Assembly (NCBI RefSeq): GCF_003570715.1 | Contig: NZ_QXXQ01000015.1 | Span: forward strand, 1-64,000 | DNA length: 64,000 bases | From: Gemmobacter lutimaris | GTDB lineage: Bacteria; Pseudomonadota; Alphaproteobacteria; Rhodobacterales; Rhodobacteraceae | Direction: 5' to 3' | Shown: in pieces, positions 13,172 through 62,741 of the stretch | Numbering within the stretch: position 1 is the first letter of the stretch | Layout: each line of letters opens with the position of its first letter | The notes under the pieces: generated by a model | Seen by the model: the letters and a program-made list of their open reading frames with translations, nothing else | Databases searched by the model: none | What the model was told of the DNA's origin: nothing | Position numbers and translations under genes: made by a program

Positions 13172-13209
13172 GAAGGCAAAATTTCCCTGGCCCGCGAATC
13201 GCTTTGCGC

Positions 13210-13238
13210 TTGCGGGAAAGGGGCCAGATCGCTACATT
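13210..13238 (+). promoter_or_regulatory. Promoter for the repB-repC antisense RNA
   Basis: TTGCGG (13210-13215), a 17-bp spacer, then TACATT (13233-13238), reading opposite to repABC. Spacing is ideal and both boxes are near consensus. The predicted start is near 13245. Confidence 0.55.
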
Positions 13239-13244
13239 CAGAGG

Positions 13245-13330: not shown

Positions 13331-13371
13331 TTCTGCCTGTCTCGTGCCTCCTTGTTGGTTGTTGCTCTTCC

Positions 13372-14304
13372 TCAGTCTTCCTTGCGCTTCCAGCGCTCGT
13401 GAAGCTCAGCAATCAGCTGCGGGGCCATGCCCTCAAGCCAGCTGACAAAATCTCTGTCCTCGGCCTTCAGCTCGAGCTTGAACTGTCGGCCTCGGCGCCC
13501 TGTCGCGATGGTTGCAGCCCCGACACCCGGAATGGCCACACTGGGCGCCCCTCGGGGACCTGATGGACGGGTCGGCCGCTCTGCCTGCACCACTGCGGCG
13601 AGGACGGCAAGGAACGCGGCGTCTGACTTTTCGTCAGGTCCACCGGAGTGAGAGGACCTGGTCTCTGCCGCTACTGCAGCGAGGTTCTCGCGGTCCACAG
13701 ATGCATCGCCCAGTGACTTCTTGAGCTCCTCCCAACGAGGCCGGCCAATACCTGGCGCAGCACCGATCGCAAGTACGAGGCTCTCACCAACTGCGCGAAC
13801 GACACTTAACAGCTGCGACACACCGGCTTCTGTGAGCCCCAGAACCTCTGCCACACCCTTGTTGGTACGTTCCGCCTCTCCAAGATGATCACCATTGAGC
13901 AAGGCCGCCGCGACCAAGGCACGTTCTATGAAGCTCAGGTCACGTCGTTCTTGGTTCTCGAGCAGCTGATCCCGAAGCGCCTGATCCCCGTCCATGTCAG
14001 TTACGATCGCACGGACCTTGATCCCGAGATCCCGGCAAGCTTCAAGCCGACGCCGCCCGTAGATCAGGCTGTAGCGATCGCCTTCGAGAGGTCGCACGAG
14101 GATCGGCACCCGTTGGCCGCTTCTGGAGATCGATGCCTTCAGCCCAGCAATCTCGATTTGCAGACGGTCATCCAGCCTGCCCACGGTCTCGACATGGTCA
14201 GGCTCGATCTCGAACACGCCACCCCGCAGCCTGCGCCCCTCAAGAGCGTCGGGGGCATTGCGCAATGTCTGCAAGGGCAGTCCCAGTTTAGGCTTTCTTG
14301 CCAT
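13372..14304 (-). CDS. repB: RepB, ParB-family partition protein of repABC
   Basis: A 310-residue ParB-type protein: GRRRLEAC at 83-90, LLENQERRDLS at 114-124 and a helix-turn-helix at about 150-170 (NKGVAEVLGLTEAGVSQLLS), then a C-terminal dimerisation part. It binds parS and works with RepA in plasmid segregation. The start MARKPKLGL at 14304 overlaps the end of repA by 17 nt, as expected in a coupled operon; the longer frame from 14355 would extend further into repA. The nearest parS candidates are at 11890 and 11937. Confidence 0.92.
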   Translation of the reverse strand: MARKPKLGLPLQTLRNAPDALEGRRLRGGVFEIEPDHVETVGRLDDRLQIEIAGLKASISRSGQRVPILVRPLEGDRYSLIYGRRRLEACRDLGIKVRAIVTDMDGDQALRDQLLENQERRDLSFIERALVAAALLNGDHLGEAERTNKGVAEVLGLTEAGVSQLLSVVRAVGESLVLAIGAAPGIGRPRWEELKKSLGDASVDRENLAAVAAETRSSHSGGPDEKSDAAFLAVLAAVVQAERPTRPSGPRGAPSVAIPGVGAATIATGRRGRQFKLELKAEDRDFVSWLEGMAPQLIAELHERWKRKED

Positions 14305-15481
14305 TGCGTCCCCACGTGCTCTGGATGATCGCAGCGATCTCGTCGTTGACGGCATTCATGGACTCGATAGCGCGGTCGAAGGTCTGGCGCGTGAAGTCCT
14401 TCTTGTCCGCCTCATACAGGGTCTGCTTGGTCAGTCCGGCATCCGATATCGCCGTCGACTCGACCATGTGGTTGGTAAGCACCGAACGCCCGAAGAGCCC
14501 TCGGATGAAGGCGATCACCTCGGTCTGTGGGGCGTCGCCCACCTTGTAACGGGTCGGCAAGAACCGCAGCCAATCGAAACGCAGGTTGGCGCCCGCGTCA
14601 CGGATCACACCCAAAAGGTCGGCCGTCATCCGCAGGAACTGCGACATGGACATGAGGTCAAGCATCTGAGGGTGAACGGTGACCAGGACGCCCGAGGACG
14701 CGGAGAGAGCAGACATGGTCAGAAAGCCCAGTTGCGGAGGACAGTCGATCACGACGACATCATAGTCGCTTTCGACGCTGTCGAGGGCATCACGGACCCT
14801 CGCGAAGAAAGCGCGGGCGCCGCCACGCTGGATCGCGGCTGGGGTCTCATGCTCGAACTCCATAAGCTCGAGATTGCCCGGAATAAGGTCCAGGCCACGG
14901 ATGTAGGTCTTTCTGATGACCTCGGAAACCGGGACAGGGTCGTCATAACGGACCGCGTCGTACAGCGTCCCGCCTTCCATCAGGTCCAGTTCAGGCTGGA
15001 TCCCATGCAAGGCGGACAACGACGCCTGCGGATCCAGATCAATGGCCAGCACCCGATAACCCTTGAACGCAAGTCTCTGTGCAAGGTGTGCTGATGTGGT
15101 GGTCTTGCCCGAGCCACCCTTGAAATTCACAACGGAAATGACCTGTAGCTCGTCCCCTTTGCGCCGACCCGGCACGTAGGTTCCCGGCTTTTTGGCATTG
15201 GCCTCAAGGCTTTGCCTGATCTCCCAGACATCGTCGAGGGTGTAGCGGCGATGGCTACCGGCCGTCGTCTCGACGTCCGTGATCTTGCCTTCCCGATGAA
15301 GTTTGCGAAGGTAGGTGTGATCGACACCAATCAGCTCGGCCGCTTCACCACTCGTCAGGCTGCGCATCACCTTCTTCGCGTCGGGAGGGAAGTGGGCTGC
15401 ACGTTGTGCATGCAGGTTCGAAGCCAGGAGTTCGGCGTAGTGGCCAATGGCGACGTCTAGGTCTTTGTCTATCTCGGTCAT
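14288..15481 (-). CDS. repA: RepA, ParA-family partition ATPase of repABC
   Basis: A 397-residue protein: N-terminal winged-helix DNA-binding part (SGEAAELIGVDHTYLRKLHREGKI, about 44-67), deviant Walker A KGGSGKTT at 121-128, IDLDPQ at 147-152 and a later VVVIDCPPQLGF. RepA drives partition and represses the operon with RepB. It is first in the minus-strand repA-repB-repC operon and has the normal family length. The 209-bp region upstream, shared with the divergent antitoxin gene, should hold the repABC promoter and operator. Confidence 0.94.
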   Translation of the reverse strand: MTEIDKDLDVAIGHYAELLASNLHAQRAAHFPPDAKKVMRSLTSGEAAELIGVDHTYLRKLHREGKITDVETTAGSHRRYTLDDVWEIRQSLEANAKKPGTYVPGRRKGDELQVISVVNFKGGSGKTTTSAHLAQRLAFKGYRVLAIDLDPQASLSALHGIQPELDLMEGGTLYDAVRYDDPVPVSEVIRKTYIRGLDLIPGNLELMEFEHETPAAIQRGGARAFFARVRDALDSVESDYDVVVIDCPPQLGFLTMSALSASSGVLVTVHPQMLDLMSMSQFLRMTADLLGVIRDAGANLRFDWLRFLPTRYKVGDAPQTEVIAFIRGLFGRSVLTNHMVESTAISDAGLTKQTLYEADKKDFTRQTFDRAIESMNAVNDEIAAIIQSTWGRNGKKA

Positions 15482-16011: not shown

Positions 16012-17175
16012 CTACAGATTGCGCAACTGCTCCACGGCGGTGGCCAAAGGCATTGCTCTCAGCCCGTCACCTGCCGGCACCTCCCGTTCACCGGCATAAA
16101 CCAAGATCTTCCGGTCGGCCTTGATGTCATCGACCGACAGATGGAAACCACGCGACACCTTGGGTGTTGTCGTGCGCTTGATCTCAATCGCCCAGATCGC
16201 ATTCCCGGGAAGCCGCAGAACAAGGTCAAGCTCGGCCCCCGCTGCAGTCCGGTAGAAGAAGTGTTCGGTCCCTACTGGCGCGGCGGCGATCAGGGTTTCG
16301 ATGGAGAACCCTTCCCAGCTTCCACCGACCACCGGGTGCCCCAGCACGCTTTCCAGCGAACCGAGGCCAAGCAAGGCATGGACGAGGCCGCTATCCCTGA
16401 CAAAGACCTTTGGCGACTTGACGACGCGCTTGCCCGCATTCTCATGCCAAGGCTGCAGGCGCCGGACCAACATAAGATCGACGAGCAGATCAAGGTATCG
16501 CCCCACCGTCTGGCCTGAGACGCCCAGACCCTCTGCAAGCGAGCTCGCATTCAGCAGTCCACCCTGCGCATGCGCCAGCATCGTCCAGAAGCGGCGCAGC
16601 GTCGCAGCCGGGATGCGCGGCCCAAGGGCAGGGATATCGCGTTCGAGGTAGGTGCGCAGGAAATCCTCGCGCCAGGCCAGGCTGTTCTGGTCACTATCTG
16701 CTTGGAAGCTGTCAGGGAAACCGCCTCTCAGCCACAGGTCGTTCATTCTGTCCTCGCCGACTTCGTCCAGCAGGAGTGGCGGCATTTCGATATAACGAAC
16801 ACGCCCGGCAAGGGACTCGGCCGATTGGTGCAGAAGCACATTCGATGCAGACCCAAGCAGGAGGAACTGCCCCGTGCGGGCCCCCTTGCGGCGTCGCATG
16901 TCGATCTGTCCGCGGAGGGTCTTGAACAGGTCCGGCATCTGCTGGACTTCATCAAGGATGACGAGTTTGCCGACCTGTTCATCCAGATACAGATCTGGCT
17001 CTGTCAGGACCCGTCGATCTGCGTCGCGTTCCAGATCAAGGTACACGGATGGGCGTTGTCCAGCTATCTCGAGCGCGAGGGTGGTCTTGCCAACCTGCCG
17101 CGGCCCCAAGAGGACAACAGCCGCTTGAGCGTCGAGGGCGGATTGAACTGTCTGAGTAGCATGGCGATGATACAT
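16012..17175 (-). CDS. ATPase with DUF4143 domain
   Basis: About 387 residues. N-terminal AAA domain with Walker A GPRQVGKTT and Walker B-like KLVILDEVQ, then FLLLGSASN, followed by the C-terminal DUF4143 domain (GKRVVKSPKVFVRDSGLVHA; FFYRTAAGAELDLVL; AIEIKRT), which has a restriction-endonuclease-like fold in related proteins. The family is widespread on mobile DNA and its role is unproven. The start is uncertain between a TTG at 17184, with GGAG nearby, and the ATG at 17175. It lies just downstream of the serine recombinase gene on the same strand. Confidence 0.87.
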   Translation of the reverse strand: MYHRHATQTVQSALDAQAAVVLLGPRQVGKTTLALEIAGQRPSVYLDLERDADRRVLTEPDLYLDEQVGKLVILDEVQQMPDLFKTLRGQIDMRRRKGARTGQFLLLGSASNVLLHQSAESLAGRVRYIEMPPLLLDEVGEDRMNDLWLRGGFPDSFQADSDQNSLAWREDFLRTYLERDIPALGPRIPAATLRRFWTMLAHAQGGLLNASSLAEGLGVSGQTVGRYLDLLVDLMLVRRLQPWHENAGKRVVKSPKVFVRDSGLVHALLGLGSLESVLGHPVVGGSWEGFSIETLIAAAPVGTEHFFYRTAAGAELDLVLRLPGNAIWAIEIKRTTTPKVSRGFHLSVDDIKADRKILVYAGEREVPAGDGLRAMPLATAVEQLRNL

Positions 17176-49195: not shown

Positions 49196-50068
49196 ATGAA
49201 ACTCGAGATGCTGCGCGTCTTCCAGACCACCGCCGCGCAGGGGTCGCTGGCCCGTGCGGCCGAGGCCCTGGGCAGAACGCCCTCGGCCGTCTCGATGATG
49301 CTCTTGCAACTGGAACAGGAGGTCGGCGGCGCGCTTTTCGAGGCGGGCCGCAAGAGCCGCCTGACACCGCTCGGCCTTCTGGTGCTGGAGGAAAGCCGCC
49401 GCGCCAACGAGGCGTTCGAGCGCAGCGTCGGCGCGATCCGCCGCTATGCCACCGCGACCGGCGGGCTGGTGCGGATCGCGGCGGTGCCGTCCGCGACCAT
49501 CGGTCTGTTGCCCCCGGTGATCCTGCGGTTTCGCCGCGAACGCCCGGATGTGCGGTTGGAAATCAACGATGTGGATAGCGCCTCGGTCCGCCGCCGGATC
49601 GAGAATGACGAGGCGGATATCGGCATCGTTTCGGCGGCACCGGAAAACGCCGGCGAAGGAACGCTGATCGAACGCACGCCGCTGGGCATCGTCTGCCGGG
49701 TGGGTGGCCCCATCGACCGCGCGGCAAGCGAGGGCCGCAGGGATTGGGCACTGATGGAACTGGAGCCGATGATCGTCAACCCGCTCTGCGGGATGGTGAA
49801 GAACCCTGCCGTCGAAGGGCTGGTGCTGCGCTCAGGCCTTGAATCGCGCAATACCACGGCCCTTCTGGCTTTCGTTCATGCCGGGCTGGGCGCCACGATC
49901 CTGCCCGAAAGCGCGATGCGTGCAACGGGCGGCGCGCTCTCCTTCTTGCAGCCCGACGACCCTGGCGCCTTTCGGCACCTGTTGAAGATCCGCCAGACCA
50001 CGCGGCCCGCACCCCCGGTGGTCGAGACGTTCTGGCAAAGCCTTCACGCCCTGTCGCCGGGGGATTGA
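49196..50068 (+). CDS. LysR-family transcription regulator (BCCT operon)
   Basis: A 290-residue LysR protein. N-terminal helix-turn-helix: VFQTTAAQGSLARAAEALGR then TPSAVSMMLLQLEQEVGGAL (about 6-45), then an effector-binding domain (RIAAVPSATIGLLPPVILRF from about 98). GGAG lies 8 nt before the ATG. Divergent from the aldehyde dehydrogenase of the BCCT operon; its 3' end overlaps the opposing LysR gene by 25 bp. Confidence 0.92.
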   Translation: MKLEMLRVFQTTAAQGSLARAAEALGRTPSAVSMMLLQLEQEVGGALFEAGRKSRLTPLGLLVLEESRRANEAFERSVGAIRRYATATGGLVRIAAVPSATIGLLPPVILRFRRERPDVRLEINDVDSASVRRRIENDEADIGIVSAAPENAGEGTLIERTPLGIVCRVGGPIDRAASEGRRDWALMELEPMIVNPLCGMVKNPAVEGLVLRSGLESRNTTALLAFVHAGLGATILPESAMRATGGALSFLQPDDPGAFRHLLKIRQTTRPAPPVVETFWQSLHALSPGD

Positions 50069-50973
50069 GCCTCTGTCGCGGCAAGCCCGGCAAACCGCTG
50101 GCGGACCCGCTGCACCAGATCGCTGACCAGCCGCGAAGCGGGGCGCAGGGCCGGGGTGAGGATGTCATAGGTGAAGGGCTGAACCGGGCGGATCGGACGG
50201 GCCACGACCATGCCGAGATGCGCGCAATGCAGCGCCGTCACCGGCTCGACGATCGAAACGCCCGCGCCTCCGGCGACCATGGCGCAGATGGCGAAGGACA
50301 GTTGCGCCTCGGCGACCACGCGGGGCTTGATGCCATGATCGGCAAAGAAGCGGTCGGTGTCGGACCTTGTGCTGATCTCGCTGCCAAGGGCGATGAAGGG
50401 CCGTTGGTGGAAATCCTGTGGTTCCAGCACCGCCTTGTCACAGAGCGCATGGCCGGGCGGCAGCACCGCCAGCATGGGCATTGTTCCCAGCGGTTCGCGC
50501 CGGATCGCCGGCAGATCGAAGTCCAGCGCGCTGAAACCCACGTCGAATTGCTGCGAACTGAGGTGCTGCACCACGGCATGCGAACTGCGCACCCGAAGCG
50601 AGACGGCGATGCCGGGCCGCTCAGCGGTGAAGTCGGCTATGGCGCCAGGCAGGAACTGCAATCCAAGGGCCGGCATCGCCGCGATCTTCAGGCTGCCGCT
50701 GCGGTATTGCCGGATGTCATCGGCCACGCGGGAGATTTCCTGAAGCCCGACGAAGGACCGCCGCACCTCCTCATATAGCGCGTCGGCCTCGGGCGTGGGC
50801 GTCAGGCTGCGGCCGATGCGGGCGAACAGCGCAAAGCCGAGTTCGGCCTCAAGATCGGCCAGCAGGCGGCTGACCGAGGGTTGGGTCAGGAACAGCAGAT
50901 CGGCGGCGGCCGTGACCGAGCCGCTTTCGATGATGGCGCGGAAGGCCTCGATCTGCCGATGGGAAAGCCGCAT
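50044..50973 (-). CDS. LysR-family transcription regulator (opine-like operon)
   Basis: A 309-residue LysR protein starting MRLSHRQIEAFRAIIESGSV; the helix-turn-helix TAAADLLFLTQPSVSRLLAD follows, and the effector domain begins near LKIAAMPALGLQFLPGAIAD. It is divergent from the oxidase operon at 51070, in the same relation as OccR and NocR to opine catabolism operons in Agrobacterium, which are also LysR proteins. The longer frame to 51045 is not supported. Its end overlaps the opposing LysR gene. Confidence 0.9.
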   Translation of the reverse strand: MRLSHRQIEAFRAIIESGSVTAAADLLFLTQPSVSRLLADLEAELGFALFARIGRSLTPTPEADALYEEVRRSFVGLQEISRVADDIRQYRSGSLKIAAMPALGLQFLPGAIADFTAERPGIAVSLRVRSSHAVVQHLSSQQFDVGFSALDFDLPAIRREPLGTMPMLAVLPPGHALCDKAVLEPQDFHQRPFIALGSEISTRSDTDRFFADHGIKPRVVAEAQLSFAICAMVAGGAGVSIVEPVTALHCAHLGMVVARPIRPVQPFTYDILTPALRPASRLVSDLVQRVRQRFAGLAATEAQSPGDRA

Positions 50974-50981
50974 GTCAGACT

Positions 50982-50998
50982 CATAGCATTGGCGTATG
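50982..50998. promoter_or_regulatory. Candidate LysR site before the opine-like operon
   Basis: CATA-N9-TATG, within the 96-bp gap between the divergent LysR and FAD oxidase genes. It has the T-N11-A-type symmetry of LysR sites. Short arms make this weak. Confidence 0.35.
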
Positions 50999-51069
50999 GA
51001 TAGCGCGATTCTTCGGATTTTACATATTCGCCCCTGATCTGTCATCCCTGCAGCAAGGGGAGATCGGCC

Positions 51070-52176
51070 ATGTCAGCGCAAGCAGGCACAGCAATCATTG
51101 GCGGGGGCATCGTAGGGCTGTGCGTGGCCCTCGGGCTTGCGGCGCGCGGGCATGAGGTGCTGGTGCTGGACGGGCGCGACGGCGACATGCGCGCTTCGCA
51201 GGGGAATTTCGGGCTGGTCTGGTTGCAGGGCAAGGGCGCAGGCTATGCGCCCTATGCGCGCTGGTCTTTTCAGGCGGTGCAGGCCTGGCCCGACTTTGCG
51301 AAACGCCTGTCAGGGCTGGTCGACGTCGATCTGGCGCTGTGTCAGCAGGGCGGCTACGAGTTCTTCACCGACGCTGCGGAATATGAGGCTTTCGGCCACG
51401 ACCTGCACCGGCAGGCCAACGCGCTGGACGACCGCTTATCTTTTGAACTCCTGAACCACGCCGATCTTGCGGCGCGCCTGCCCGGCATCGGTCAGCGCGT
51501 GGTCGGGGCGAGTTTCTGCCCGCTTGATGGCCATGTGAACCCGCTGCGCCTGCATTTCGCCTTGCGGCAGGCCTGCCTTGCCAGCGGGGTCCGCATCACT
51601 GGCGGCGCCAGCGTCGTATCCGTGCGCCCGGCGGGCGCTGGTTTCGCCCTTTTGGACGAGACCGGCCGTCAGACCCGCGCCAGCCGCGTGGTTCTGTGCG
51701 CGGGCCTGGGGGCGGCGCATCTTGGCCCGCAGCTGGAGTTCCGGGCGCCGATCCGGGCGCAGCGGGGCGAGCTGATGATCACCGAGCGGGTGGCCGACCG
51801 CCTGCCCTTCCTCTCCAGCACGATCCGGCAGGTCGATGAGGGCGGTTTGCAGATCGGCGGCACCAAGGCCGAGACCGACTGCGACACCGAGACGACCACC
51901 ACGATGGTGGGACTAGCGCAGCACGCCGTCGCGGTCTGGCCCCGGCTGGCCGATCTGCGCGTGCTGCGCTCCTGGGCGGCGCTGCGCGTCATGACGCCGG
52001 ACGGCTATCCGATCTACCAGCGTTCCGCCGATCATCCGGGCGCCTTCCTTGTCACCTGTCACAGCGGGGTCACGCTGGCGCCCCTGCACGCAACACGGCT
52101 GGCCGAATGGATCGACGGCGATCCCGCCGCCCCGGATCTGGAGGCTTTCGATGAACGCCGCTTCGCGCTTTCGTGA
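51070..52176 (+). CDS. FAD-dependent amino acid/opine oxidase, catalytic subunit (OoxB/HcnC/DadA type)
   Basis: A 368-residue flavoprotein of the glycine oxidase/DAO group: FAD site AIIGGGIVGLCVALGLAARG (8-27), SQGNFGLVWLQGKGAGYAP near 39-57, the late PDGYPIYQRSADHPGAFLV, and VTCHSGVTLAPLHATRLAEW near the C-terminus. With the two following small and large subunits it matches heterotrimeric oxidases such as opine oxidase, hydrogen cyanide synthase and D-hydroxyproline dehydrogenase. It overlaps the next gene by 26 nt. Confidence 0.9.
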   Translation: MSAQAGTAIIGGGIVGLCVALGLAARGHEVLVLDGRDGDMRASQGNFGLVWLQGKGAGYAPYARWSFQAVQAWPDFAKRLSGLVDVDLALCQQGGYEFFTDAAEYEAFGHDLHRQANALDDRLSFELLNHADLAARLPGIGQRVVGASFCPLDGHVNPLRLHFALRQACLASGVRITGGASVVSVRPAGAGFALLDETGRQTRASRVVLCAGLGAAHLGPQLEFRAPIRAQRGELMITERVADRLPFLSSTIRQVDEGGLQIGGTKAETDCDTETTTTMVGLAQHAVAVWPRLADLRVLRSWAALRVMTPDGYPIYQRSADHPGAFLVTCHSGVTLAPLHATRLAEWIDGDPAAPDLEAFDERRFALS

Positions 52177-52468
52177 CGCCCCCGGCGCCGCCCCGCGCAG
52201 CCTGCGCCTGATGCTGGACGGGGTGCCCGTGCTGGCCCGGCCGGGCGAAAGCGTCGCCGCGGCGCTGCTGGCGCACAGCGGGGGCGCCACGCGCCAGACG
52301 CCTGTCACCGGCGCGGGGCGCGCGCCCTATTGCATGATGGGGGTGTGTTTCGACTGCCTTGTCACCATCGACGGGCACCCGAATGTGCAGGCCTGCATGG
52401 TGAGCGCGCGCGAGGGCATGGTGATCCAGCGCCAGATCGGCGCGCGCCGGCTGGGGGACCAGCCATGA
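52151..52468 (+). CDS. [2Fe-2S] small subunit of the oxidase (HcnA type)
   Basis: A 105-residue protein starting MNAASRFRDAPGAAPRSLRL, with a Fer2_4-type fold: PVLARPGESVAAALLAHSGG, then PYCMMGVCFDCLVTIDG, containing three cluster cysteines, and NVQACMVSARE with the fourth. The ATG at 52151 lies within the end of the upstream gene. It couples to the next gene by a 4-nt overlap. It carries electrons between the two FAD subunits. Confidence 0.88.
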   Translation: MNAASRFRDAPGAAPRSLRLMLDGVPVLARPGESVAAALLAHSGGATRQTPVTGAGRAPYCMMGVCFDCLVTIDGHPNVQACMVSAREGMVIQRQIGARRLGDQP

Positions 52469-53840
52469 GCGCCGATCTGGTCATCATCGGCGCCGGTCCA
52501 GCCGGGATGGCGGCGGCCCGGGTGGCGGCGGAGGGCGGGTTGTCGGTCACGCTTCTGGACGAACAGGAGCGGGCGGGCGGGCAGATCTACCGCAATGTCG
52601 GCGCAGTAGCGGGGCGCGGCTGGCTGGGGGCCGATTACGCGCGCGGTGGCGCTCTGGTGCAGGGCCTCGATCATCCCGGCATCACGCATCAGCCCCGCGC
52701 AACCGTCTGGCGCATCGACGCAAGGCGCGGCGTGATCTGGTCGCGCGACGGGCAAAGTCATGTCAGCCCGGCCGCGCATGTCCTGATCGCCACCGGCGCG
52801 CAGGAGCGGCCCGTGCCTTTTCCGGGCTGGACCCTGCCGGGGCTGATGCCCGCAGGTGCGGCGCAAATCCTGATGAAACAGTCGGGTATGGTGCCGGATG
52901 AGGCCATCCTCTCCGGGGCGGGGCCGCTGCTCTATCTGGTCGCGGCGCAGATGATCGCGGCAGGTGCGCCGCCGGTCGCGCTGGTCGAGACGCCGACGGC
53001 GATCACCCATGCCCTGCCGAAACTGCCGCGCGCGCTGTTCGGCCTGCCGACCCTGATCAAGGGCCTTGGTCTGATCGCCCGCATCCGCGCGGCCGGCATC
53101 CCGTGGTATCGGGGCGCCGCCGACTTCCGGGCAGAGACGACGGAGGACGGCCGGATCCGCTTTGACTTCACCACCGGAAAGCAGAGCCACAGCCTGACGT
53201 GCGGCCTGTTGCTGACCCATCTGGGCGTGATCCCGCAAAGCCACCTGACCCGCTCGATGGGTCTGGCGCATGAATATGACGCGGAGCAAGGCGCCTGGCG
53301 GCCGACGCTGGACCCCTGGGGGCAGTCGTCCGAGCCCCATGTGTTCGTTGCAGGCGACGGCGGCGGGATCGGCGGCGCCGAGGCTGCGCGTGCAAAGGGC
53401 GCGCTGGCCGCGCTGGCGATCCTGCACCAGGCCGGAAAGCTGGATGCAGCCGGGCGCGACCGGCGGGCCGCTCCGCTCCGCCGCGCTTTGTCGCGCGCGC
53501 TTTCCCTGCGGCCGTTCCTCGATGCAGCTTATTCCGTGCCCTCCGCCTTCCTGGCCCCGCCGGACGAGACCATCGTCTGCCGCTGCGAGGAGGTTACCGC
53601 CGGTTCCATCCGCAAGGCCGCCTGCACCGGCGCCGAGGGCCTGCGCCTGATGCGCACCAGCCTGCGCACCGGAATGGGCCCCTGTCAGGGCCGGATGTGC
53701 GAGACCACCGTCATCGGGCTGATCGCCGAAGCGACCGACCGCCCCGCGTCCACCCTCGGGCCGGGCCGCATCCGCACCCCCGTCAAGCCCGTCACCCTGG
53801 CCGAGATTGCAGCCCTCGGTCCCCAGCCAGAGGAAACCAC

Positions 53841-53844
<4 letters not shown>
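52465..53844 (+). CDS. FAD/NAD-type large subunit of the oxidase (OoxA/NoxA/HcnB type)
   Basis: A 459-residue flavoprotein: [20 protein letters not shown] near the start, [33 protein letters not shown] around 110-130, and a C-terminal [2Fe-2S] BFD-like domain [20 protein letters not shown] with MGPCQGRMC near 395-415. This is the plan of the opine oxidase A subunit and HcnB. It completes the three-part oxidase encoded from 51070 and overlaps the ABC ATPase gene by 4 nt. Confidence 0.9.
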
Positions 53845-54605
<761 letters not shown>

Positions 54606-54626
54606 TCACCCAGAGGAGGAACCACC

Positions 54627-55409
54627 ATGATCAGAAAGACCCTCATCGCCGCAGCCACCCTTGCGACCCTTGCCACCGGCGCTTTTGCGCAGGACAAGCT
54701 GCGCATCGGCGTCGAAGGCGCCTATCCGCCCTTCTCGTTCAAGCAGGCGGACGGCAGCCTTGCGGGCTTTGACATCGACATCGCCATGGCGCTGTGCGCC
54801 GAGATGAAGCGCGACTGCGAGCTGGTCGAACAGGACTGGGACGGGATGATCCCGGCGCTGAAGGCGAAGAAGTTCGACGCCATCGTCGCCTCGATGTCGA
54901 TCACCGAGGAACGCAAGCGCCAGATCGACTTTTCGGCGAAGTATTACAAGACCCCGGCGCGGGTGGTGGCGAAGAAGGACTCCGGCCTTGAAGGCACGGC
55001 GACAGGGCTGGCTGGCAAGCGTCTGGGCGTGCAGCGCGGCTCGACCCACCAGTGCTATGCCGAAAAGATGTTCCCCGAGGCGGAAATCGTCCTTTACGGC
55101 ACGCAGGAAGAAGTGTTCAGCGACCTTGCCCTTGGCCGGATCGACGCGCAACTGTCGGATTCGCTGATCTCGCAGGAAAGCTTCCTGTCCAAACCCGAGG
55201 GCGCGGATTTTGCCTTCCTTGCCGGCGATCATACCGATGTCGATTGCTATGGCGAAGGCGTGGGCATTGCCGTGCGCCAGGGTGAGGAAGAACTGCGCGA
55301 CGCCTTCAGCGCGGCGATCACCGCGATCCGCGACAACGGCACCTACAAGACCGTCAACGACAAGTATTTCCCCTTCGACATCTACGGCGGCCGTCCCGAC
55401 GGGATGTAA
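54627..55409 (+). CDS. Periplasmic amino acid/opine-binding protein (OccT/NocT/ArgT type)
   Basis: A 260-residue binding protein with signal peptide MIRKTLIAAATLATLATGAF, cleavage after AFA near residue 22. The mature part has RIGVEGAYPPFSFKQADGSL, MPALKAKKFDAIVASMSIT-like sequence (IPALKAKKFDAIVASMSITE) and LGVQRGSTHQCYAEKMFPEA, family 3 features. Relatives bind Arg, ornithine, octopine or nopaline. AGAGGAGG precedes its ATG. A strong hairpin follows. Confidence 0.92.
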   Translation: MIRKTLIAAATLATLATGAFAQDKLRIGVEGAYPPFSFKQADGSLAGFDIDIAMALCAEMKRDCELVEQDWDGMIPALKAKKFDAIVASMSITEERKRQIDFSAKYYKTPARVVAKKDSGLEGTATGLAGKRLGVQRGSTHQCYAEKMFPEAEIVLYGTQEEVFSDLALGRIDAQLSDSLISQESFLSKPEGADFAFLAGDHTDVDCYGEGVGIAVRQGEEELRDAFSAAITAIRDNGTYKTVNDKYFPFDIYGGRPDGM

Positions 55410-55416
55410 CCGGACC

Positions 55417-55441
55417 CCGGGGGCGCATCCCGCGCCCCCGG
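55417..55441 (+). promoter_or_regulatory. Hairpin after the binding-protein gene
   Basis: Perfect 10-bp stem CCGGGGGCGC/GCGCCCCCGG with a 5-nt loop, followed by CCTTTGC, no real T-run. Same place as the proX-proW hairpin, suggesting differential expression of the binding protein. Confidence 0.5.
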
Positions 55442-55460
55442 CCTTTGCGTGAGGTCAGGC

Positions 55461-56150
55461 ATGGATCTTCTTATCGAATACCGATCACAGCTTTGGGCCG
55501 GGCTGGTGACAACGGTTCAGATTGCGCTGGCCTCGCTGTTCTTTTCGGTGGCTCTGGGGCTGATCGGCGCCTGGGCGAAACTATCGGCCAACCGCACCGC
55601 AAGGGCGCTGGCCGGCGCCTATACGACGCTGGTGCGCGGCGTGCCGGACCTTGTGCTGATCATGCTGGTCTTCTTCGGCGGGCAGGTCACGCTGAACGCC
55701 ATCGGCGCTGCCACCGGCCTCTGGGATTATCTCGAGGTCAGCCAGTTCGCCGCCGGCGCCCTGACCATCGGCGTGATCTTCGGCGCCTACTTCACCGAAA
55801 CCTTCCGCGGTGCGATCCTTGCCATCCCGCGAGGCCAGATCGAAGCCGGAATCAGCATCGGCATGTCGCGCCCGCTTCTGTTCCGCCGCATCGTCTGGCC
55901 GCAGATGGTGCGCTATGCCCTGCCCGGTTTCGGCAACAACTGGCTGGTGCAGCTGAAGACGACGGCGCTGGTCTCGGTCATCGGCTTGCAGGATCTGGTC
56001 TACAACGCCTTTGCGGCGGGCCGGTCGACTGACGCGCTGTTCACCTTCATGGCGGCGGCCTTCGTGATCTATCTTGGCCTGACGGCGCTGTCGGACCTGG
56101 GCCTGCGTGCACTGGAACGGCGCTACAGCCGCGGCGTGCAAAGGGCCTGA
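55461..56150 (+). CDS. Polar amino acid ABC permease 1 (OccQ/NocQ type)
   Basis: A 229-residue permease starting MDLLIEYRSQLWAGLVTTVQ, with about five membrane segments and the EAA coupling loop EAGISIGMSRPLLFRRIVWP followed by QMVRYALPGFGNNW. GAGG precedes its ATG, chosen over an upstream frame start at 55449. Pairs with the next permease to form the membrane part of the importer. Confidence 0.92.
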   Translation: MDLLIEYRSQLWAGLVTTVQIALASLFFSVALGLIGAWAKLSANRTARALAGAYTTLVRGVPDLVLIMLVFFGGQVTLNAIGAATGLWDYLEVSQFAAGALTIGVIFGAYFTETFRGAILAIPRGQIEAGISIGMSRPLLFRRIVWPQMVRYALPGFGNNWLVQLKTTALVSVIGLQDLVYNAFAAGRSTDALFTFMAAAFVIYLGLTALSDLGLRALERRYSRGVQRA

Positions 56151-56153
56151 GCG

Positions 56154-56915
56154 ATGGAAACCTTTCTGAACTGGTTCCCGCTGGACCTGCCGCTGATCGC
56201 CCAGAATTTCGACCGTTTCCTGGTCGGCGTGCGGGTGACGCTGGGCCTGACCTTCCTGTCGCTGGCGCTTGGCGCCGCGCTTGCCGTGCCGCTGGCCATT
56301 GCCCGTGCGTCGCGCCACCGGGTGCTGAACCCGCTGGTCTGGACCTATACCTATGTCTTTCGCGGCACGCCGCTGTTGGTGCAGACCTATCTGCTTTATT
56401 ACGGCGCGGGCCAATTTGCCTTCATCCGCGACTCGTGGCTGTGGGATCCCGTACTGTCGCAGGCCTGGTGGTGCGCGCTGATTGCCTTCACTCTGAACAC
56501 CGCCGCCTATTCGACCGAGCTGTTGCGCGGCGCCATCGTCGATACGCCCGCAGGCGAGGTCGAGGCGGCGATCGCCACCGGCCATTCCTACTGCGGACGC
56601 TTGCGCCGCATCATCCTGCCGTCGGCCTTTCGCCGCGCCATTCCTGCCTACTCCAATGAGGTGATCTTCATGCTGCACGGCTCGGTCGTGGCCAGTACCA
56701 TCACACTGCAGGACATACTTGGCGTCGGCCGCTGGCTGAACGGGCGCTACTACCTGGCCTATGAGGGGCTGATCACCGCGGCCGTCCTCTACTTCATCAT
56801 CGTCTTTGCCATCACCCGGGTCTTCCGTTGGCTGGAGCGGCGCTATCTGCGCCATCTGGAACGCCGCCGCGAACCCGCCGCCGCCGCCGTCGCACCACCC
56901 ATGGGGATCAAATGA
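56154..56915 (+). CDS. Polar amino acid ABC permease 2 (OccM/NocM type)
   Basis: A 253-residue permease: [40 protein letters not shown] and the EAA loop [20 protein letters not shown] then [14 protein letters not shown]. Its C-terminus is a basic extension with a run of Ala ([14 protein letters not shown]). It overlaps the RidA gene by 4 nt. Confidence 0.92.
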
Positions 56916-57256
56916 TCGAGCGTTTCCACACCACCGCCCGGATGAGCCGCATCGTCCGCCACAACGGCACAATCTGGCTGTGCGGACAGGTCGGCGCAGG
57001 CGCCACCGTGGCCGAGCAGACCCGCGACTGCCTGTCCCGCGTCGATGCCTTGCTGACCGAAGCCGGATCCTCGCGCCGCGACATCCTGCAAGCGACGATC
57101 TGGCTTGCCCATATGGCCGACTATGACGCGATGAATGCGGTGTGGGACGAGTGGATGCCCGAAGGCTGCGCCCCTGCACGGGCCTGCGGCGAGGCGCGGC
57201 TGGCCGGATCGGACCTGCTGGTCGAGGTGATCGTGACGGCGGCGGTGTCGGCATGA
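56912..57256 (+). CDS. RidA family protein 2
   Basis: A 114-residue RidA protein starting [72 protein letters not shown] and [11 protein letters not shown], with the conserved Arg. It would hydrolyse the imine made by the oxidase, giving keto acid and ammonia or amine. Coupled to both neighbours by 4-nt overlaps. Confidence 0.88.
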
Positions 57257-58179
57257 GCGGCGGCACCTGCATCCTGATCGGCGCGCCGCTTGATTGCGGC
57301 AAGCGCCGCCGCGGCTGTTCGATGGGGCCAGAAGCCTATCGCGTCGCGGGCCTTGCCGAGACGCTGGCCGATCTTGGCTGGCGGGTCGAGGACCGGGGCG
57401 ACGTGCCCGGCCCCAAGGCGCCGCCGCCCGCGCCCGCCGGGCAGGTCCATGCCCGGTCCGAAAACATCGAATGGACGAGGCTTCTGTCGAATGCTGCCCG
57501 TGACGCGATGGCCACCGGCTTTCCGATCTTCCTCGGCGGCGATCATGCGCTGTCGCTGGGCACCGTGGCGGGCGTGGCCGATCACGCCGCGGCGAAAGGC
57601 CGACCGCTGTTCGTCCTGTGGCTGGATGCCCATCCCGACATCCACAGCCCGGCCACCTCGGCCTCGGGCAACCTGCACGGCACGCCCATCGGCTATGTCA
57701 CCGGGCAGCCCGGCTTTGACGGGTTTCCGCCGATGGCGAATCCGGTGCCGCCGCGAAACATCTGCTTCATCGGCCTGCGCTCGGTCGACGGGCCGGAACG
57801 CGCGGCGATTCAGTCGGCGGGCATGCGTGCCATCGACATGCGCCAGATCGACGAACGCGGCATCGCCGCCCCGCTGGCCGAGTTCATCGCCGCAGTGAGG
57901 GCCGCGAACGGCATGCTGCACCTGTCGCTGGATGTCGATTTCCTCGACCCCGCCATCGCGCCCGCCGTCGGCACCACCGTGCCGGGCGGCGCCACCTTCC
58001 GCGAGGCGCATCTGGCGATGGAGATGCTGCACGACAGCGGGCTTGTCACCTCGCTGGACCTTGTGGAACTGAACCCGTTTCTCGACGATCGCGGGCGAAC
58101 CGCCGCTCTGATGGTCGATCTGACCGCCTCGCTGTTCGGCCGCTGCGTCTTTGACCGGCCCACCCGCAGCCATTCCTGA
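57253..58179 (+). CDS. Arginase family protein
   Basis: A 308-residue ureohydrolase with the full manganese site: GGDHALS (His98), WLDAHPDIH (Asp125, His127, Asp129) and SLDVDFLDP (Asp227, Asp229). [16 protein letters not shown] near the end contains the conserved Glu. It should convert arginine to ornithine and urea. It lies between RidA and ornithine cyclodeaminase, so it is the second step of an opine/arginine to proline route, as arcA is in Ti plasmid noc regions. Confidence 0.92.
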
Positions 58180-58188
58180 AGGACCGCC

Positions 58189-59244
58189 ATGACCGCCCCC
58201 AAACCCTCGGACCTTGCCTTCATTCGCTTTGTCAGCGTGGAAAACATGATGCGGCTGGTCAACAGCATCGGCGTCGAGACCGCGCTGCGCGACCTTGCCC
58301 GCTATATCGAGGACGACTTCCGCCGCTGGACCCTGTTCGACAAGACGCCGCGCGTGGCCAGCCATTCGGCCGAAGGTGTGATCGAGCTGATGCCGACATC
58401 GGATGGGGTCAGCTACGGTTTCAAATATGTGAACGGCCACCCGAAGAACACGAAATCGGGCTTGCAGACGGTCACCGCCTTCGGCCTTCTGGCGCGTGTC
58501 GACACCGGCTATCCTGAACTCTTGACCGAAATGACGCTGTTGACGGCGCTGCGCACCGCCGCGACAAGCGCCATGGTCGCGCGCCATCTGGCGCCCAAAG
58601 GCGCCACGACCATGGCGATGATCGGCAATGGCGCGCAATCCGAGTTTCAGGCCCTTGCGATGCGCGCAATCTGCGGGATCAGCGAGCTGCGGCTCTACGA
58701 CATCGACCCCGCCGCGACGGCCAAACTGATGCGGAACTTGTCTGATCGGGGCATCGGGTTGACCGCCTGCAAGACCGCGCAAGAGGCCATCGAAGGGGCG
58801 CAGATCGTCACCACCTGTACCGCAGACAAGCAGTATGCCACGATCCTGACCGACAACATGGTGGGGGCCGGTGTTCACATCAACGCCATAGGCGGCGACT
58901 GCCCCGGCAAGACAGAGTTGCACGGCGACATCTTGCGCCGGTCCGATGTCTTCGTGGAATACACCCCGCAAACCCGGATCGAGGGCGAGATCCAGCAGAT
59001 GCCCGAGGACTTCCCCGTCACCGAGATGTGGCAAGTCATCGCCGGCACCGCGCCCGGCCGCACTTCGGACCGCCAGATCACGCTGTTCGACGGGGTGGGC
59101 TTTGCCATCGAGGATTTCTCGGCGCTCTGCTATATCCGCGACCGGCTGGAAGGGACCGACCTGTTCCAGCGGCTTGACATCATCGCGGACCCCGACGATC
59201 CGCGCGATCTGTTCGGAATGCTCTCGCGGGCGGTCCAGGGCTAG
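58189..59244 (+). CDS. ocd: Ornithine cyclodeaminase
   Basis: A 351-residue OCD/mu-crystallin protein: [40 protein letters not shown] with the conserved Lys, [31 protein letters not shown] (NAD site) and [20 protein letters not shown] with the catalytic Asp. It turns ornithine into proline and ammonia. The length and these features are like the OCD of Agrobacterium Ti plasmids. Last gene of the operon; an insertion sequence begins 65 bp downstream. Confidence 0.93.
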
Positions 59245-59308
59245 ACGCGGCCGGCGCCCGGCCTGATACGACCCGATTGCCGCCCCGGCCGATCATCCCG
59301 CATTTCCG

Positions 59309-60996
59309 GGCTCTGCCTCAATCTGTGTGGCGGAGGGGCAGCATTCTTGCCCTCAACAGTTCTGGCCCGGCTCGGCCGTACATGGCGCGTTTGAGGGTCT
59401 TCAGACGATTAATCTGACCTTCTGCTTGGCCGTTGCTCCAGGGCATCTCGATAGCGTTTTTTACCGCATCGAAATCCCGGTTCAATGTGCGTGCGAAGCG
59501 CACGATGGGCGCCAGGTCGGTTTCGATCGCGTCGTCGATCCATGCAGGGAGCGGGTCTGCCTCGCGGCCACGCAGGATACCGTTGAACCGCATGACGAGG
59601 CAGCGCATCGTTGCGAAGGCGGGAGAGCCAGCCTTGAGCGCGTCGACTTTCCGCGCCTGATCCGGGGTGAGTTTTCCGCGGGGTTTGATACACAGCGCTG
59701 CCGCGATGACCGGGGAGATCGCGTGCCCCGTTTCCGGGTCCCGGACCGGTTCCAGGATCTGGTGCTCCAAGGCAGGGCCCTTCGCTTGCTTTTCGGCTCT
59801 GCGCCACCCCGCCAGCAGCCGCTGCAAATGCGTCGGGCTCCCCTCGTAGCCACGCTCTCGGATCAGACGGAACAGGGCGCTTCCAGTTCGAATTCCGCCC
59901 TTCCAGCTTTGGCTCAGGAACTCTTCAAAGTACCACGGCGAAGTCGGCTTCAAAGCTGCCCGCCTGCGGTCCGGCGGCGTCTCGAACTGCAGCCATTTCG
60001 CGATGCTGCGACGAGGGAACCCTGTTCGCCGCCCAATCTCGCTGCAGGTAAGCCCCTGATTTCGAAGCGCATGGATGGTGGTGAAAATCTCTTCCCGAGA
60101 CGTCCTGTGCGCAAGGCGGGACTTCAGAAGGCTTCCCTCTGCGGTGATATTGTCGGCGTCGGACAGCAGCGCCCTGCCGGTCGCACGGCCGTGAAGGTTC
60201 ATCTGCTCCTCGATAGCCTGCCGCAGGTTCTGCACGATATGAAACCGGTCGGCGACCTGTTCCGCTTGCGGCGCGCCTTGCCGGGCAGCCTGGGCGTAGA
60301 GACCGCAGCGATCTCTGCTGATCACTTCCACCTCGGGATGTCGTTTCAGCCAGTCGGTGCAGGTGACCACATCACGATCTTCGAGAACATCGATGACCGC
60401 GCGACGCTCCAGATCGACAATGATCGTGCCGTAGGTCTGCGACTTCCGCCAGCTCCAGTCGTCGATCCCGATGACGGTCGGCGGCTCGGCAGTGTCTTGA
60501 GCACGGTTCTTCAGCTGCCTAAGCACCGTGTCATCACTGACCCCAAGGCCCAAGCGGTGCAAGAGCCGCTCGGCAGGCCGCCCGCCGGTCGCGTGCCCAA
60601 GATGGCTGACAATTTCCCCGACACGCGAAGTGCGCCGCGCAAAAGGACGCGCAATCGAGCCGATCTGGTCCGAGAAAGTCCGGCGCGGGCAGGCGGGTGC
60701 CAAACATCGCCAACGGCAAACCCAGAGGGTTACCGTAACCCCGTCACCATGGGCGGGATAATCCTGCAGCCGCCTACGCCGCCAGCCGTGACGACGTCGC
60801 GATTGCAATCCACAGTCTGGGCAGATGCCGTTTGGTGTCAGACTGCCGGATACAGTCCACCCGCCGGAATCGCGCCGCTCAACGCTTTGAACGGAAACAT
60901 CGCTCCCGGGCGACCAGTGCTTCCTTGAAATCATCACTATCCCTCCTGAATCTTCCCGTTCTCAGGATAGTGCGCCACACAGATTGAGGCAGAGCC
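59309..60996. mobile_element. ISL3-family insertion sequence, copy A
   Basis: 1,688 bp bounded by perfect 24-bp inverted repeats beginning GGCTCTGCCTCAATCTG at 59309-59332 and ending at 60973-60996. It holds one transposase gene on the minus strand. Flanking 8-mers (CATTTCCG left; TATTTAAT right) do not match, so no target duplication is visible. Confidence 0.93.
59318..60937 (-). CDS. ISL3-family transposase, copy A
   Basis: A 539-residue transposase. N-terminal zinc-ribbon cysteines C39-x2-C42 and C74/C78/C83 (GICPDCGLQS; VCRWRCLAPACP), helix-turn-helix near 110-135, and the DDE domain: VIGIDDWSWRKSQTYGTIIV (first Asp), EVISRDRCGLYAQAARQGA (second Asp), and WSNGQAEGQINRLKTLKRAM (Glu) near the C-terminus. 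Intact. Confidence 0.94.
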   Translation of the reverse strand: MMISRKHWSPGSDVSVQSVERRDSGGWTVSGSLTPNGICPDCGLQSRRRHGWRRRRLQDYPAHGDGVTVTLWVCRWRCLAPACPRRTFSDQIGSIARPFARRTSRVGEIVSHLGHATGGRPAERLLHRLGLGVSDDTVLRQLKNRAQDTAEPPTVIGIDDWSWRKSQTYGTIIVDLERRAVIDVLEDRDVVTCTDWLKRHPEVEVISRDRCGLYAQAARQGAPQAEQVADRFHIVQNLRQAIEEQMNLHGRATGRALLSDADNITAEGSLLKSRLAHRTSREEIFTTIHALRNQGLTCSEIGRRTGFPRRSIAKWLQFETPPDRRRAALKPTSPWYFEEFLSQSWKGGIRTGSALFRLIRERGYEGSPTHLQRLLAGWRRAEKQAKGPALEHQILEPVRDPETGHAISPVIAAALCIKPRGKLTPDQARKVDALKAGSPAFATMRCLVMRFNGILRGREADPLPAWIDDAIETDLAPIVRFARTLNRDFDAVKNAIEMPWSNGQAEGQINRLKTLKRAMYGRAGPELLRARMLPLRHTD

Positions 60997-61053: not shown

Positions 61054-62741
61054 GGCTCTGCCTCAATCTGTGTGGCGGAGGGGCAGCATTCTTGCCCTCA
61101 ACAGTTCTGGCCCGGCTCGGCCGTACATGGCGCGTTTGAGGGTCTTCAGACGATTAATCTGACCTTCTGCTTGGCCGTTGCTCCAGGGCATCTCGATAGC
61201 GTTTTTTACCGCATCGAAATCCCGGTTCAATGTGCGTGCGAAGCGCACGATGGGCGCCAGGTCGGTTTCGATCGCGTCGTCGATCCATGCAGGGAGCGGG
61301 TCTGCCTCGCGGCCACGCAGGATACCGTTGAACCGCATGACGAGGCAGCGCATCGTTGCGAAGGCGGGAGAGCCAGCCTTGAGCGCGTCGACTTTCCGCG
61401 CCTGATCCGGGGTGAGTTTTCCGCGGGGTTTGATACACAGCGCTGCCGCGATGACCGGGGAGATCGCGTGCCCCGTTTCCGGGTCCCGGACCGGTTCCAG
61501 GATCTGGTGCTCCAAGGCAGGGCCCTTCGCTTGCTTTTCGGCTCTGCGCCACCCCGCCAGCAGCCGCTGCAAATGCGTCGGGCTCCCCTCGTAGCCACGC
61601 TCTCGGATCAGACGGAACAGGGCGCTTCCAGTTCGAATTCCGCCCTTCCAGCTTTGGCTCAGGAACTCTTCAAAGTACCACGGCGAAGTCGGCTTCAAAG
61701 CTGCCCGCCTGCGGTCCGGCGGCGTCTCGAACTGCAGCCATTTCGCGATGCTGCGACGAGGGAACCCTGTTCGCCGCCCAATCTCGCTGCAGGTAAGCCC
61801 CTGATTTCGAAGCGCATGGATGGTGGTGAAAATCTCTTCCCGAGACGTCCTGTGCGCAAGGCGGGACTTCAGAAGGCTTCCCTCTGCGGTGATATTGTCG
61901 GCGTCGGACAGCAGCGCCCTGCCGGTCGCACGGCCGTGAAGGTTCATCTGCTCCTCGATAGCCTGCCGCAGGTTCTGCACGATATGAAACCGGTCGGCGA
62001 CCTGTTCCGCTTGCGGCGCGCCTTGCCGGGCAGCCTGGGCGTAGAGACCGCAGCGATCTCTGCTGATCACTTCCACCTCGGGATGTCGTTTCAGCCAGTC
62101 GGTGCAGGTGACCACATCACGATCTTCGAGAACATCGATGACCGCGCGACGCTCCAGATCGACAATGATCGTGCCGTAGGTCTGCGACTTCCGCCAGCTC
62201 CAGTCGTCGATCCCGATGACGGTCGGCGGCTCGGCAGTGTCTTGAGCACGGTTCTTCAGCTGCCTAAGCACCGTGTCATCACTGACCCCAAGGCCCAAGC
62301 GGTGCAAGAGCCGCTCGGCAGGCCGCCCGCCGGTCGCGTGCCCAAGATGGCTGACAATTTCCCCGACACGCGAAGTGCGCCGCGCAAAAGGACGCGCAAT
62401 CGAGCCGATCTGGTCCGAGAAAGTCCGGCGCGGGCAGGCGGGTGCCAAACATCGCCAACGGCAAACCCAGAGGGTTACCGTAACCCCGTCACCATGGGCG
62501 GGATAATCCTGCAGCCGCCTACGCCGCCAGCCGTGACGACGTCGCGATTGCAATCCACAGTCTGGGCAGATGCCGTTTGGTGTCAGACTGCCGGATACAG
62601 TCCACCCGCCGGAATCGCGCCGCTCAACGCTTTGAACGGAAACATCGCTCCCGGGCGACCAGTGCTTCCTTGAAATCATCACTATCCCTCCTGAATCTTC
62701 CCGTTCTCAGGATAGTGCGCCACACAGATTGAGGCAGAGCC
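61054..62741. mobile_element. ISL3-family insertion sequence, copy B
   Basis: A second 1,688-bp copy in the same orientation, with the same 24-bp inverted repeats, separated from copy A by 57 bp (60997-61053). The two copies appear identical in sequence as far as I compared them. Flanks CCTTTAAA and GATTTAAG differ. It truncates an AraC-family gene on its right. Confidence 0.93.
61063..62682 (-). CDS. ISL3-family transposase, copy B
   Basis: A 539-residue transposase identical in predicted sequence to copy A, with the same zinc ribbon, helix-turn-helix and DDE residues. Intact, so the pair should be able to transpose singly or, in principle, as a unit with the 57-bp spacer. Confidence 0.94.
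   Translation of the reverse strand: MMISRKHWSPGSDVSVQSVERRDSGGWTVSGSLTPNGICPDCGLQSRRRHGWRRRRLQDYPAHGDGVTVTLWVCRWRCLAPACPRRTFSDQIGSIARPFARRTSRVGEIVSHLGHATGGRPAERLLHRLGLGVSDDTVLRQLKNRAQDTAEPPTVIGIDDWSWRKSQTYGTIIVDLERRAVIDVLEDRDVVTCTDWLKRHPEVEVISRDRCGLYAQAARQGAPQAEQVADRFHIVQNLRQAIEEQMNLHGRATGRALLSDADNITAEGSLLKSRLAHRTSREEIFTTIHALRNQGLTCSEIGRRTGFPRRSIAKWLQFETPPDRRRAALKPTSPWYFEEFLSQSWKGGIRTGSALFRLIRERGYEGSPTHLQRLLAGWRRAEKQAKGPALEHQILEPVRDPETGHAISPVIAAALCIKPRGKLTPDQARKVDALKAGSPAFATMRCLVMRFNGILRGREADPLPAWIDDAIETDLAPIVRFARTLNRDFDAVKNAIEMPWSNGQAEGQINRLKTLKRAMYGRAGPELLRARMLPLRHTD

Follow-up and report, generated by a model that had tools for sequence, protein, structure and literature searches.

We analysed a window of 64,000 nucleotides, positions 1 to 64,000 of contig NZ_QXXQ01000015.1 of Gemmobacter lutimaris (assembly GCF_003570715.1), and examined the segment at 50044-59244, which the initial annotation had read as an opine-catabolism-like operon. 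The segment contains a LysR gene, divergently oriented on the minus strand, and a compact run of ten plus-strand genes, each with a clear family match; adjacent plus-strand genes overlap or lie at most about 55 bases apart. All the genes named in that annotation are open, adjacent and located where it had placed them. The features are:

50044-50973, minus strand: LysR-type regulator, OccR-like (Pfam HTH_1 and LysR_substrate; start at 50973 predicted)
50982-50998, no strand assigned: candidate LysR operator CATA-N9-TATG (T-N11-A box), between the divergent genes
51070-52176, plus strand: putative catalytic beta subunit of a flavin opine dehydrogenase-like complex, NoxB/OoxB/OdhB type 1 (Pfam DAO)
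about 52211-52468, plus strand: gamma [2Fe-2S] subunit (Pfam Fer2_4; start predicted from the Paracoccus aminovorans annotation)
52465-53844, plus strand: alpha subunit with FAD and BFD-like cysteine motifs, NoxA/OoxA type (Pfam Pyr_redox_2, SO_alpha_A3 and Fer2_BFD)
53841-54605, plus strand: ATPase of an ATP-binding cassette (ABC) importer, HisP/OccP type (Pfam ABC_tran)
54627-55409, plus strand: periplasmic family-3 binding protein of the LAO/arginine group (TIGR01096, pocket residues and tree)
55461-56150, plus strand: ABC permease, HisQ/OccQ type (Pfam BPD_transp_1; start predicted)
56154-56915, plus strand: ABC permease, HisM/OccM type (Pfam BPD_transp_1)
56912-57256, plus strand: RidA-family imine deaminase (Pfam Ribonuc_L-PSP)
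57253-58179, plus strand: arginase, RocF (TIGR01229 above cut-off; solved arginases closest; GGDH, DAHPD and SLDVD motifs)
58189-59244, plus strand: ornithine cyclodeaminase, OCD (NF005762 above cut-off; solved OCD 1u7h)

The ten plus-strand genes (51000-59300) matched plasmid IV of P. aminovorans at 82.8% identity over 98% of the stretch, and plasmid pCBA4604-01 of P. jeotgali at 79.8% identity over 97%. Because the ten-gene stretch is conserved on both plasmids, the operon is a real unit and not a chance arrangement. Gene-order scans with tblastn recovered the complete order (LysR, divergent, then beta, gamma, alpha, ATPase, binding protein, Q-type and M-type permeases, RidA, arginase, OCD) in the window and in at least 11 other loci; many of the loci named here by L numbers come from the best 80 of at least 597 matching stretches.

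The beta, gamma and alpha genes are adjacent, as in the type-1 flavin opine dehydrogenases (Nox, Oox and Odh), for which motifs in all three subunits have been described (PMC4575208). The beta subunit contains GGGIVG (GXGXXG) and R-S-W (R-X-W), GXGXXG is also present in alpha, and gamma contains C-X4-C-X2-C-X12-C (expected C-X4-C-X2-C-X11-12-C). The C-X-C and C-X4-C cysteines of alpha are also present, separated by a gap that is longer than the printed spacing and about equal to that in the three tumour-inducing (Ti) plasmid enzymes tested. Beta is 42-44% identical to OoxB (44% to that of Agrobacterium vitis) and 40% to NoxB, and alpha is 42.5% identical to both OoxA and NoxA. In a beta tree of 59 rows, hand-picked from 166 distinct sequences to cover lineages, 56 type-1 rows split from 3 type-2 rows at 100/100 support, and the window beta fell within type 1 together with NoxB and OoxB. 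A single name was kept per identical sequence, so that the beta of genome G119 (L104/L160) was left out. In both motifs and tree placement, the dehydrogenase agrees with the type-1 flavin opine dehydrogenases of the Nox/Oox kind. The AlphaFold2 model of beta (predicted local distance difference test, pLDDT, 90.1) had glycine oxidase as its nearest fold, followed by archaeal proline dehydrogenase, sarcosine oxidase and iminodiacetate oxidase, neighbours that in a predicted structure show the general fold and no specificity. We also considered beta as a plain proline, D-amino acid, glycine or sarcosine oxidase and rejected this on NCBIfam scores far below the cut-offs.

The arginase scored 296.6 bits against the TIGR01229 cut-off of 227.6, with arginases as its best solved relatives, and the OCD scored 583.8 against the NF005762 cut-off of 350, with 404 bits to the solved OCD 1u7h and 148 to the next family. 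The arginase and ornithine cyclodeaminase of the initial annotation therefore look genuine. Because both proteins match their families above cut-off, free L-arginine is a likely intermediate, which would be left unexplained if the flavin complex were simply an oxidase of D-amino acids or proline. Elsewhere in the genome, contig 63 carries another rocF-ocd pair (62% and 75% identical to the operon copies), and a Pro_dh domain occurs in an open frame of 1155 residues; for this reason the copies in the operon look dedicated.

The closest gene set that we compared is the occ operon of A. vitis pAvF25c, which reads LysR, Q-type permease, occM, occP, occT, ooxB, a 2Fe-2S gene, ooxA, RidA, rocF and ocd. 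It has counterparts of all ten structural genes and of the divergent LysR gene, with RidA, rocF and ocd in the same order. The overall gene order differs, in that the oxidase genes precede the importer in the window whereas the importer comes first in pAvF25c. For beta, alpha, the binding protein, arginase, OCD and LysR respectively, the window is 44, 42.5, 38, 61.5, 67 and 40% identical to A. vitis occ and 40, 42.5, 36.5, 59, 67 and 25% identical to noc, while occ and noc are 39, 45, 47, 62, 73 and 24% identical to each other. The two permeases are each 43% identical between window and A. vitis occ, and 48% and 50% between occ and noc. For many genes the distance from window to occ is thus about that from occ to noc; the OCD, the permeases and above all the binding protein are farther. 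Across the Ti proteins compared, the ATPase is 63-66% identical to OccP and 61% to NocP, the Q-type permease 43-47% to OccQ/NocQ, and the M-type permease 39-43% to NocM/OccM.

RidA had been put forward initially as an added step. This was not borne out, because three occ operons have an annotated RidA, to which the operon protein is 39-42% identical: those of A. vitis pAvF25c and pTiAg57 and, in a form whose end is broken, that of the octopine Ti plasmid. RidA was therefore dismissed as a novelty. In the octopine Ti plasmid record NC_002377 (L018), a short hypothetical open reading frame at 16546-16941, between RidA and ocd, can be read as the lost end of RidA followed by the start of arginase. 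Its composition implies that both genes are broken in that record; both are annotated whole in A. vitis (L012).

The noc region of pTiC58 likewise has a flavin complex, an ABC importer, arginase and OCD. Unlike the window, it had no annotated or tblastn-matched RidA in the 30 kb examined, its LysR protein is 25% identical to that of the operon, and it carries NAD-type opine dehydrogenase genes. A search of the genome with PF02317 found no NAD-type enzyme, a weak negative given that no control matched. Flavin opine dehydrogenases outside Agrobacterium have been described from Pseudomonas putida and Bradyrhizobium japonicum, with the same beta-gamma-alpha arrangement and FAD, FMN and 2Fe-2S motifs, a likeness that we draw from the description; unlike the operon here, which is plasmid-borne, they are chromosomal (PMC4575208).

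These comparisons suggest a function. We think it somewhat probable that the operon serves the catabolism of an opine derived from arginine, or of a closely related N2-substituted arginine, working in the manner of occ and noc and apparently assembled independently in Rhodobacterales. We favour this reading because the gene set is that of the A. vitis octopine operon, with the same core as noc, and because beta lies inside the type-1 opine dehydrogenase group and carries its published motifs. The initial opine-operon interpretation thus stands in its gene content, in the oxidase motifs and tree, and in its OccR-like regulator (40% identity), and fails on RidA as an added step. In the proposed pathway, the binding protein and ABC importer would take up the N2-substituted arginine, and the alpha-beta-gamma flavin and Fe-S complex would oxidise its secondary amine, passing electrons to an acceptor that is probably the respiratory chain. 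By analogy with homologues, the imine would break down to L-arginine plus a keto acid, with RidA helping hydrolysis. Arginase, which matches its family above cut-off, would convert L-arginine to urea and ornithine, and OCD, which does likewise, would convert ornithine to proline and ammonia; a resident proline dehydrogenase would then act on the proline. Control would probably be exerted by the LysR protein, in response to the imported compound, at CATA-N9-TATG.

That site, at 50982-50998, was the sole match to the palindrome in the window, where 0.09 were expected, an expectation computed after the motif had been picked from the alignment. By eye, CATA-N10-ATG was present in all 11 aligned upstream regions and exact CATA-N9-TATG in six of them, the window and L024 being identical.

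Several observations weigh against opine use, and some of them concern the importer. The binding protein passed the LAO subfamily model TIGR01096 (267.3 bits, cut-off 256.35), and its nearest relatives are plain LAO/His/arginine binders (LAO 204 bits, NocT 149, OccJ 120). The octopine signature of OccJ on the pyruvate side, Asn111, Ala164 and Asn202 (PMC5740067), is replaced by Ala111, His164 and Asp202 in 16 of 16 operon copies, in line with the LAO-like character that sets this protein apart from its occ counterpart. Of the nopaline signature Gly97, Met117, His170 and Ser207 (PMC4192606), one residue of four, the His, is present. Asp at the OccJ-202 position corresponds to the amino clasp Asp161 of LAO and is kept in all 16 copies; in LAO that aspartate holds the free alpha-amino group of the substrate, although OccJ with Asp at 202 still binds octopine with nanomolar affinity (PMC5740067). 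The arginine side, in OccJ numbering, is Glu30, Tyr33, Trp71, Ser91, Arg96 and Gln159, the same as in OccJ. Like the LAO/HisJ arginine importers, the operon encodes a TIGR01096 binding protein with HisQMP-type permeases and ATPase; unlike them, the binding protein has Glu, Trp and Gln in place of Asp, Phe and Leu around the guanidine group, and His at the position of LAO Gln122, a residue whose removal gives LAO weak octopine binding (PMC5740067). Our attempt to prove opine binding from the pocket failed, as several of the opine-like residues also occur in Escherichia coli ArtI and in the other binding proteins of this genome. Because ArtI shares the Glu, Ala, Gln, His and Asp at these positions, the pocket decides neither for nor against opine binding. 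The pocket table, like the binding-protein tree and tests below, covers 29 of 33 rows, four very distant ones having been dropped; the AlphaFold model of the protein was poor (pLDDT 71.9, predicted template modelling score 0.55) and played no part in the conclusions.

Other points against opine use come from gene content. A Rahnella isolate with ooxB/ooxA homologues and downstream transporter genes, as here, was unable to use opines (PMC10745273), so that gene content alone is no proof of opine use. Membership of type 1 leaves the substrate unfixed, and the sister clusters carry tripartite ATP-independent periplasmic (TRAP) importers and no arginase. Moreover, five loci of the operon clade (L028, L031, L032, L160 and L162) have no arginase or OCD after the permeases: RidA is present in L028 and L162, and none of the gene set follows the second permease in L031, L032 and L160, although less than 1 kb is visible after RidA in L028 and L160 is partly N. 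Three further loci (L026, L030 and L033) are cut by contig ends. The initial annotation had held that an oxidase and a binding protein closest to D-hydroxyproline or plain arginine systems, together with no opine use, would refute it. The binding protein is indeed nearest to LAO/His/arginine binders, but the oxidase is closer to OoxB and NoxB than to the proline, D-arginine and glycine enzymes compared, a set that did not include D-hydroxyproline dehydrogenase (LhpB) or HCN synthase (HcnC).

Three other readings would account for parts of these data. The LAO-type binding protein, with its amino-group aspartate, would suit the use of D-arginine, or of L- or D-basic amino acids, in which the importer would bring in the amino acid, the flavin complex would oxidise it to iminoarginine and RidA would release 2-ketoarginine while arginase and OCD handle L-arginine in parallel. 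Rid proteins can reportedly accelerate D-arginine dehydrogenase in vitro. This route is unlikely, however: D-arginine dehydrogenase was absent among the 16 solved sequences matching beta at E ≤ 0.001 and appeared only as a distant fold (ranks 36 and 41, template modelling scores 0.79 and 0.77), beta scored 61.7 bits against the cut-off of 383 for the D-amino acid dehydrogenase model NF001933, and 2-ketoarginine is not known to be an arginase substrate. Unlikely to much the same degree is a different N-substituted arginine that is no classical opine, such as N2-carboxymethyl- or N2-methyl-arginine from damaged protein. A small substituent might well be accommodated in a pocket with both Ser91 and Asp202 retained, and the beta model resembles sarcosine, dimethylglycine and iminodiacetate oxidases, albeit as members of a common fold family; set against this, nothing points positively to such a compound and the genes present are those of the A. 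vitis opine operon.

A plain arginine-to-proline route, with the flavin complex oxidising the proline made by OCD, is also consistent with the LAO-type importer and with a distant kinship between the flavin family and the L-proline dehydrogenase of archaea (1y56_B, 33.9 bits; fold rank 10). We regard it as very unlikely, given that beta groups with NoxB and OoxB in type 1 and that the genome has its own Pro_dh domain, in the 1155-residue frame, and a second rocF-ocd pair. L-proline was also inactive with the octopine-specific OpnDH2 of B. japonicum, a type-2 enzyme (Watanabe et al.).

We also examined where the operon came from. The initial annotation had proposed a phylogeny of all ten genes against occ and noc. 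As run on beta, the binding protein, arginase and OCD, it gave no single clade with the Ti genes for any of the four. The window beta lies in a 17-row operon clade (100/100), with OoxB and NoxB elsewhere within type 1, and the binding protein grouped with LAO/HisJ/ArtJ and the other binding proteins of this genome, apart from those of Ti plasmids (94/93). In approximately unbiased (AU) tests, a single clade of operon plus OoxB (p 4.5e-4) or plus NoxB (p 0.005) was rejected for beta. For the binding protein, operon plus Ti was rejected (p 0.0023) and operon plus LAO/HisJ was not (p 0.28), and a clade of Ti plus operon was rejected for arginase (p 8.8e-7) and OCD (p 4.8e-4). The groups were set by gene context but after the first trees had been seen, so the p values are somewhat flattering. 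The arginase and OCD trees were of modest size (18 and 20 rows) and included the rocF-ocd pairs of P. seriniphilus, Thioclava and Azospirillum and the OCD of S. fredii; four far rows were dropped from a second arginase tree. A recent transfer of the Ti occ or noc operon is rejected by the tests on these four genes, and the arginase and OCD trees look as separate recruitment would make them look.

Opine operons outside Agrobacterium are not in themselves new, and one is reportedly present in Pseudomonas kilonensis. They are already known from Pseudomonas and Bradyrhizobium (PMC4575208), and OccJ relatives occur in Sinorhizobium, Ensifer, Ochrobactrum and Shinella (PMC5740067). Literature on octopine or opine use in Paracoccus, Rhodobacteraceae and marine bacteria, surveyed by title and start of the abstract, contained no such Rhodobacterales operon; the description of Stagnihabitans lists occPTOM uptake genes (PMC13209277). 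What appears to be new here, judging from the genes, is that the operon was apparently assembled independently, has an LAO-type importer and is carried on a Rhodobacterales plasmid. Tentatively, and as an idea that we hold to be doubtful rather than probable, Rhodobacterales may have built a plasmid arginine-opine operon independently of Agrobacterium, by combining arginine genes of their own with a modified arginine binding protein, for octopine from aquatic invertebrates or decaying plants. If they did, the ability to feed on opines has at least two origins and does not depend on crown gall. Should the substrate be an opine, the logic of importer, flavin cleavage, arginase and OCD was assembled on more than one occasion from different lineages; octopine of animals or plants would count among the everyday nutrients of aquatic bacteria, and the Ti operons would be one case of a wider habit. 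If the substrate is not an opine, calling such clusters opine operons by gene content alone is unsafe.

The 11 loci with the complete order comprise a metagenome-assembled genome (MAG) labelled uncultured Rhodobacter, whose beta protein is identical to that of the window (L024), two genomes of the same genus as the window (L156 and L157), four Paracoccus (L009, L010, L025 and L063), Leisingera caerulea, with OCD matched in two pieces (L011), Phaeovulum vinaykumarii (L027, with L159 counted together), a Rhodobacteraceae MAG (L034) and another genome of the family (L163). In P. aminovorans (L009) the LysR gene is a 201-nt remnant next to an IS21 element. L029 has the oxidase without this importer, with a rocF-ocd pair about 5 kb further on, and L161 has an oxidase without the importer and a stop within beta. 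In a family sample of 295 genomes, apparently one per genus and with six candidates scored per genome, 33 had a beta homologue at E ≤ 1e-60 and four, the window's own genome included, had beta of the operon clade (at least 57% identity). The operon-clade type was found in 3 of 11 genomes of the same genus, again including its own.

Beside the operon clade in the beta tree, 11 of 16 rows have a TRAP importer directly upstream. Such clusters, with type-1 opine-dehydrogenase-like beta-gamma-alpha genes, often RidA, and no arginase in view, include L014, L015, L016, L036, L044, L045, L048, L082, L090 and others, and their hosts are Rhodobacterales and other bacteria (Ciceribacter, Vibrio crassostreae, Psychromonas and Neptuniibacter). 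Their substrates might conceivably be acidic opines, for example alanopine or strombine. On pTi C16/80 of R. rhizogenes (L134), a type-2 opine dehydrogenase-like gene in gamma-alpha-beta order adjoins an OccJ-like importer, an arginase fragment and a gene of the octopine/nopaline dehydrogenase family.

The window is the first 64 kb of a contig of 92,286 bases (contig 7) in a genome of 4.66 Mb. RepC, RepB and RepA are encoded at 11951-15481, and the first 20 kb have near matches to plasmids of Neotabrizicola, Fuscovulum, Gemmobacter and Tabrizicola. These features indicate that the operon is carried on a repABC plasmid of a Rhodobacteraceae-type bacterium. The repABC replicon type is also used by Ti plasmids, and the initial placement of the operon outside Agrobacterium-type plasmids is for that reason only half right.

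Two ISL3-family insertion sequences lie in tandem at 59309-60996 and 61054-62741, 57 bp apart, and the first starts about 65 bp after the OCD stop. Their 24-bp inverted ends are identical, as are their translated transposases. On the other side, an apparent betaine-type catabolic cluster adjoins the operon at 22307-49105. It contains an ABC ATPase, aldehyde dehydrogenases, a DAO-GcvT fusion, a mandelate-racemase-family enzyme, a class-III aminotransferase, a ferredoxin-type reductase (Pyr_redox_2/Reductase_C), a BCCT transporter and an M19 dipeptidase. The BCCT, M19, aldehyde dehydrogenase and LysR genes also stand beside the operon in L024, L156 and L157, and P. jeotgali has an M19 gene at 69% near its operon. 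A second LAO-like importer (L144, L155) is encoded on the same contig at 80876-81646, about 17 kb past the end of the window.

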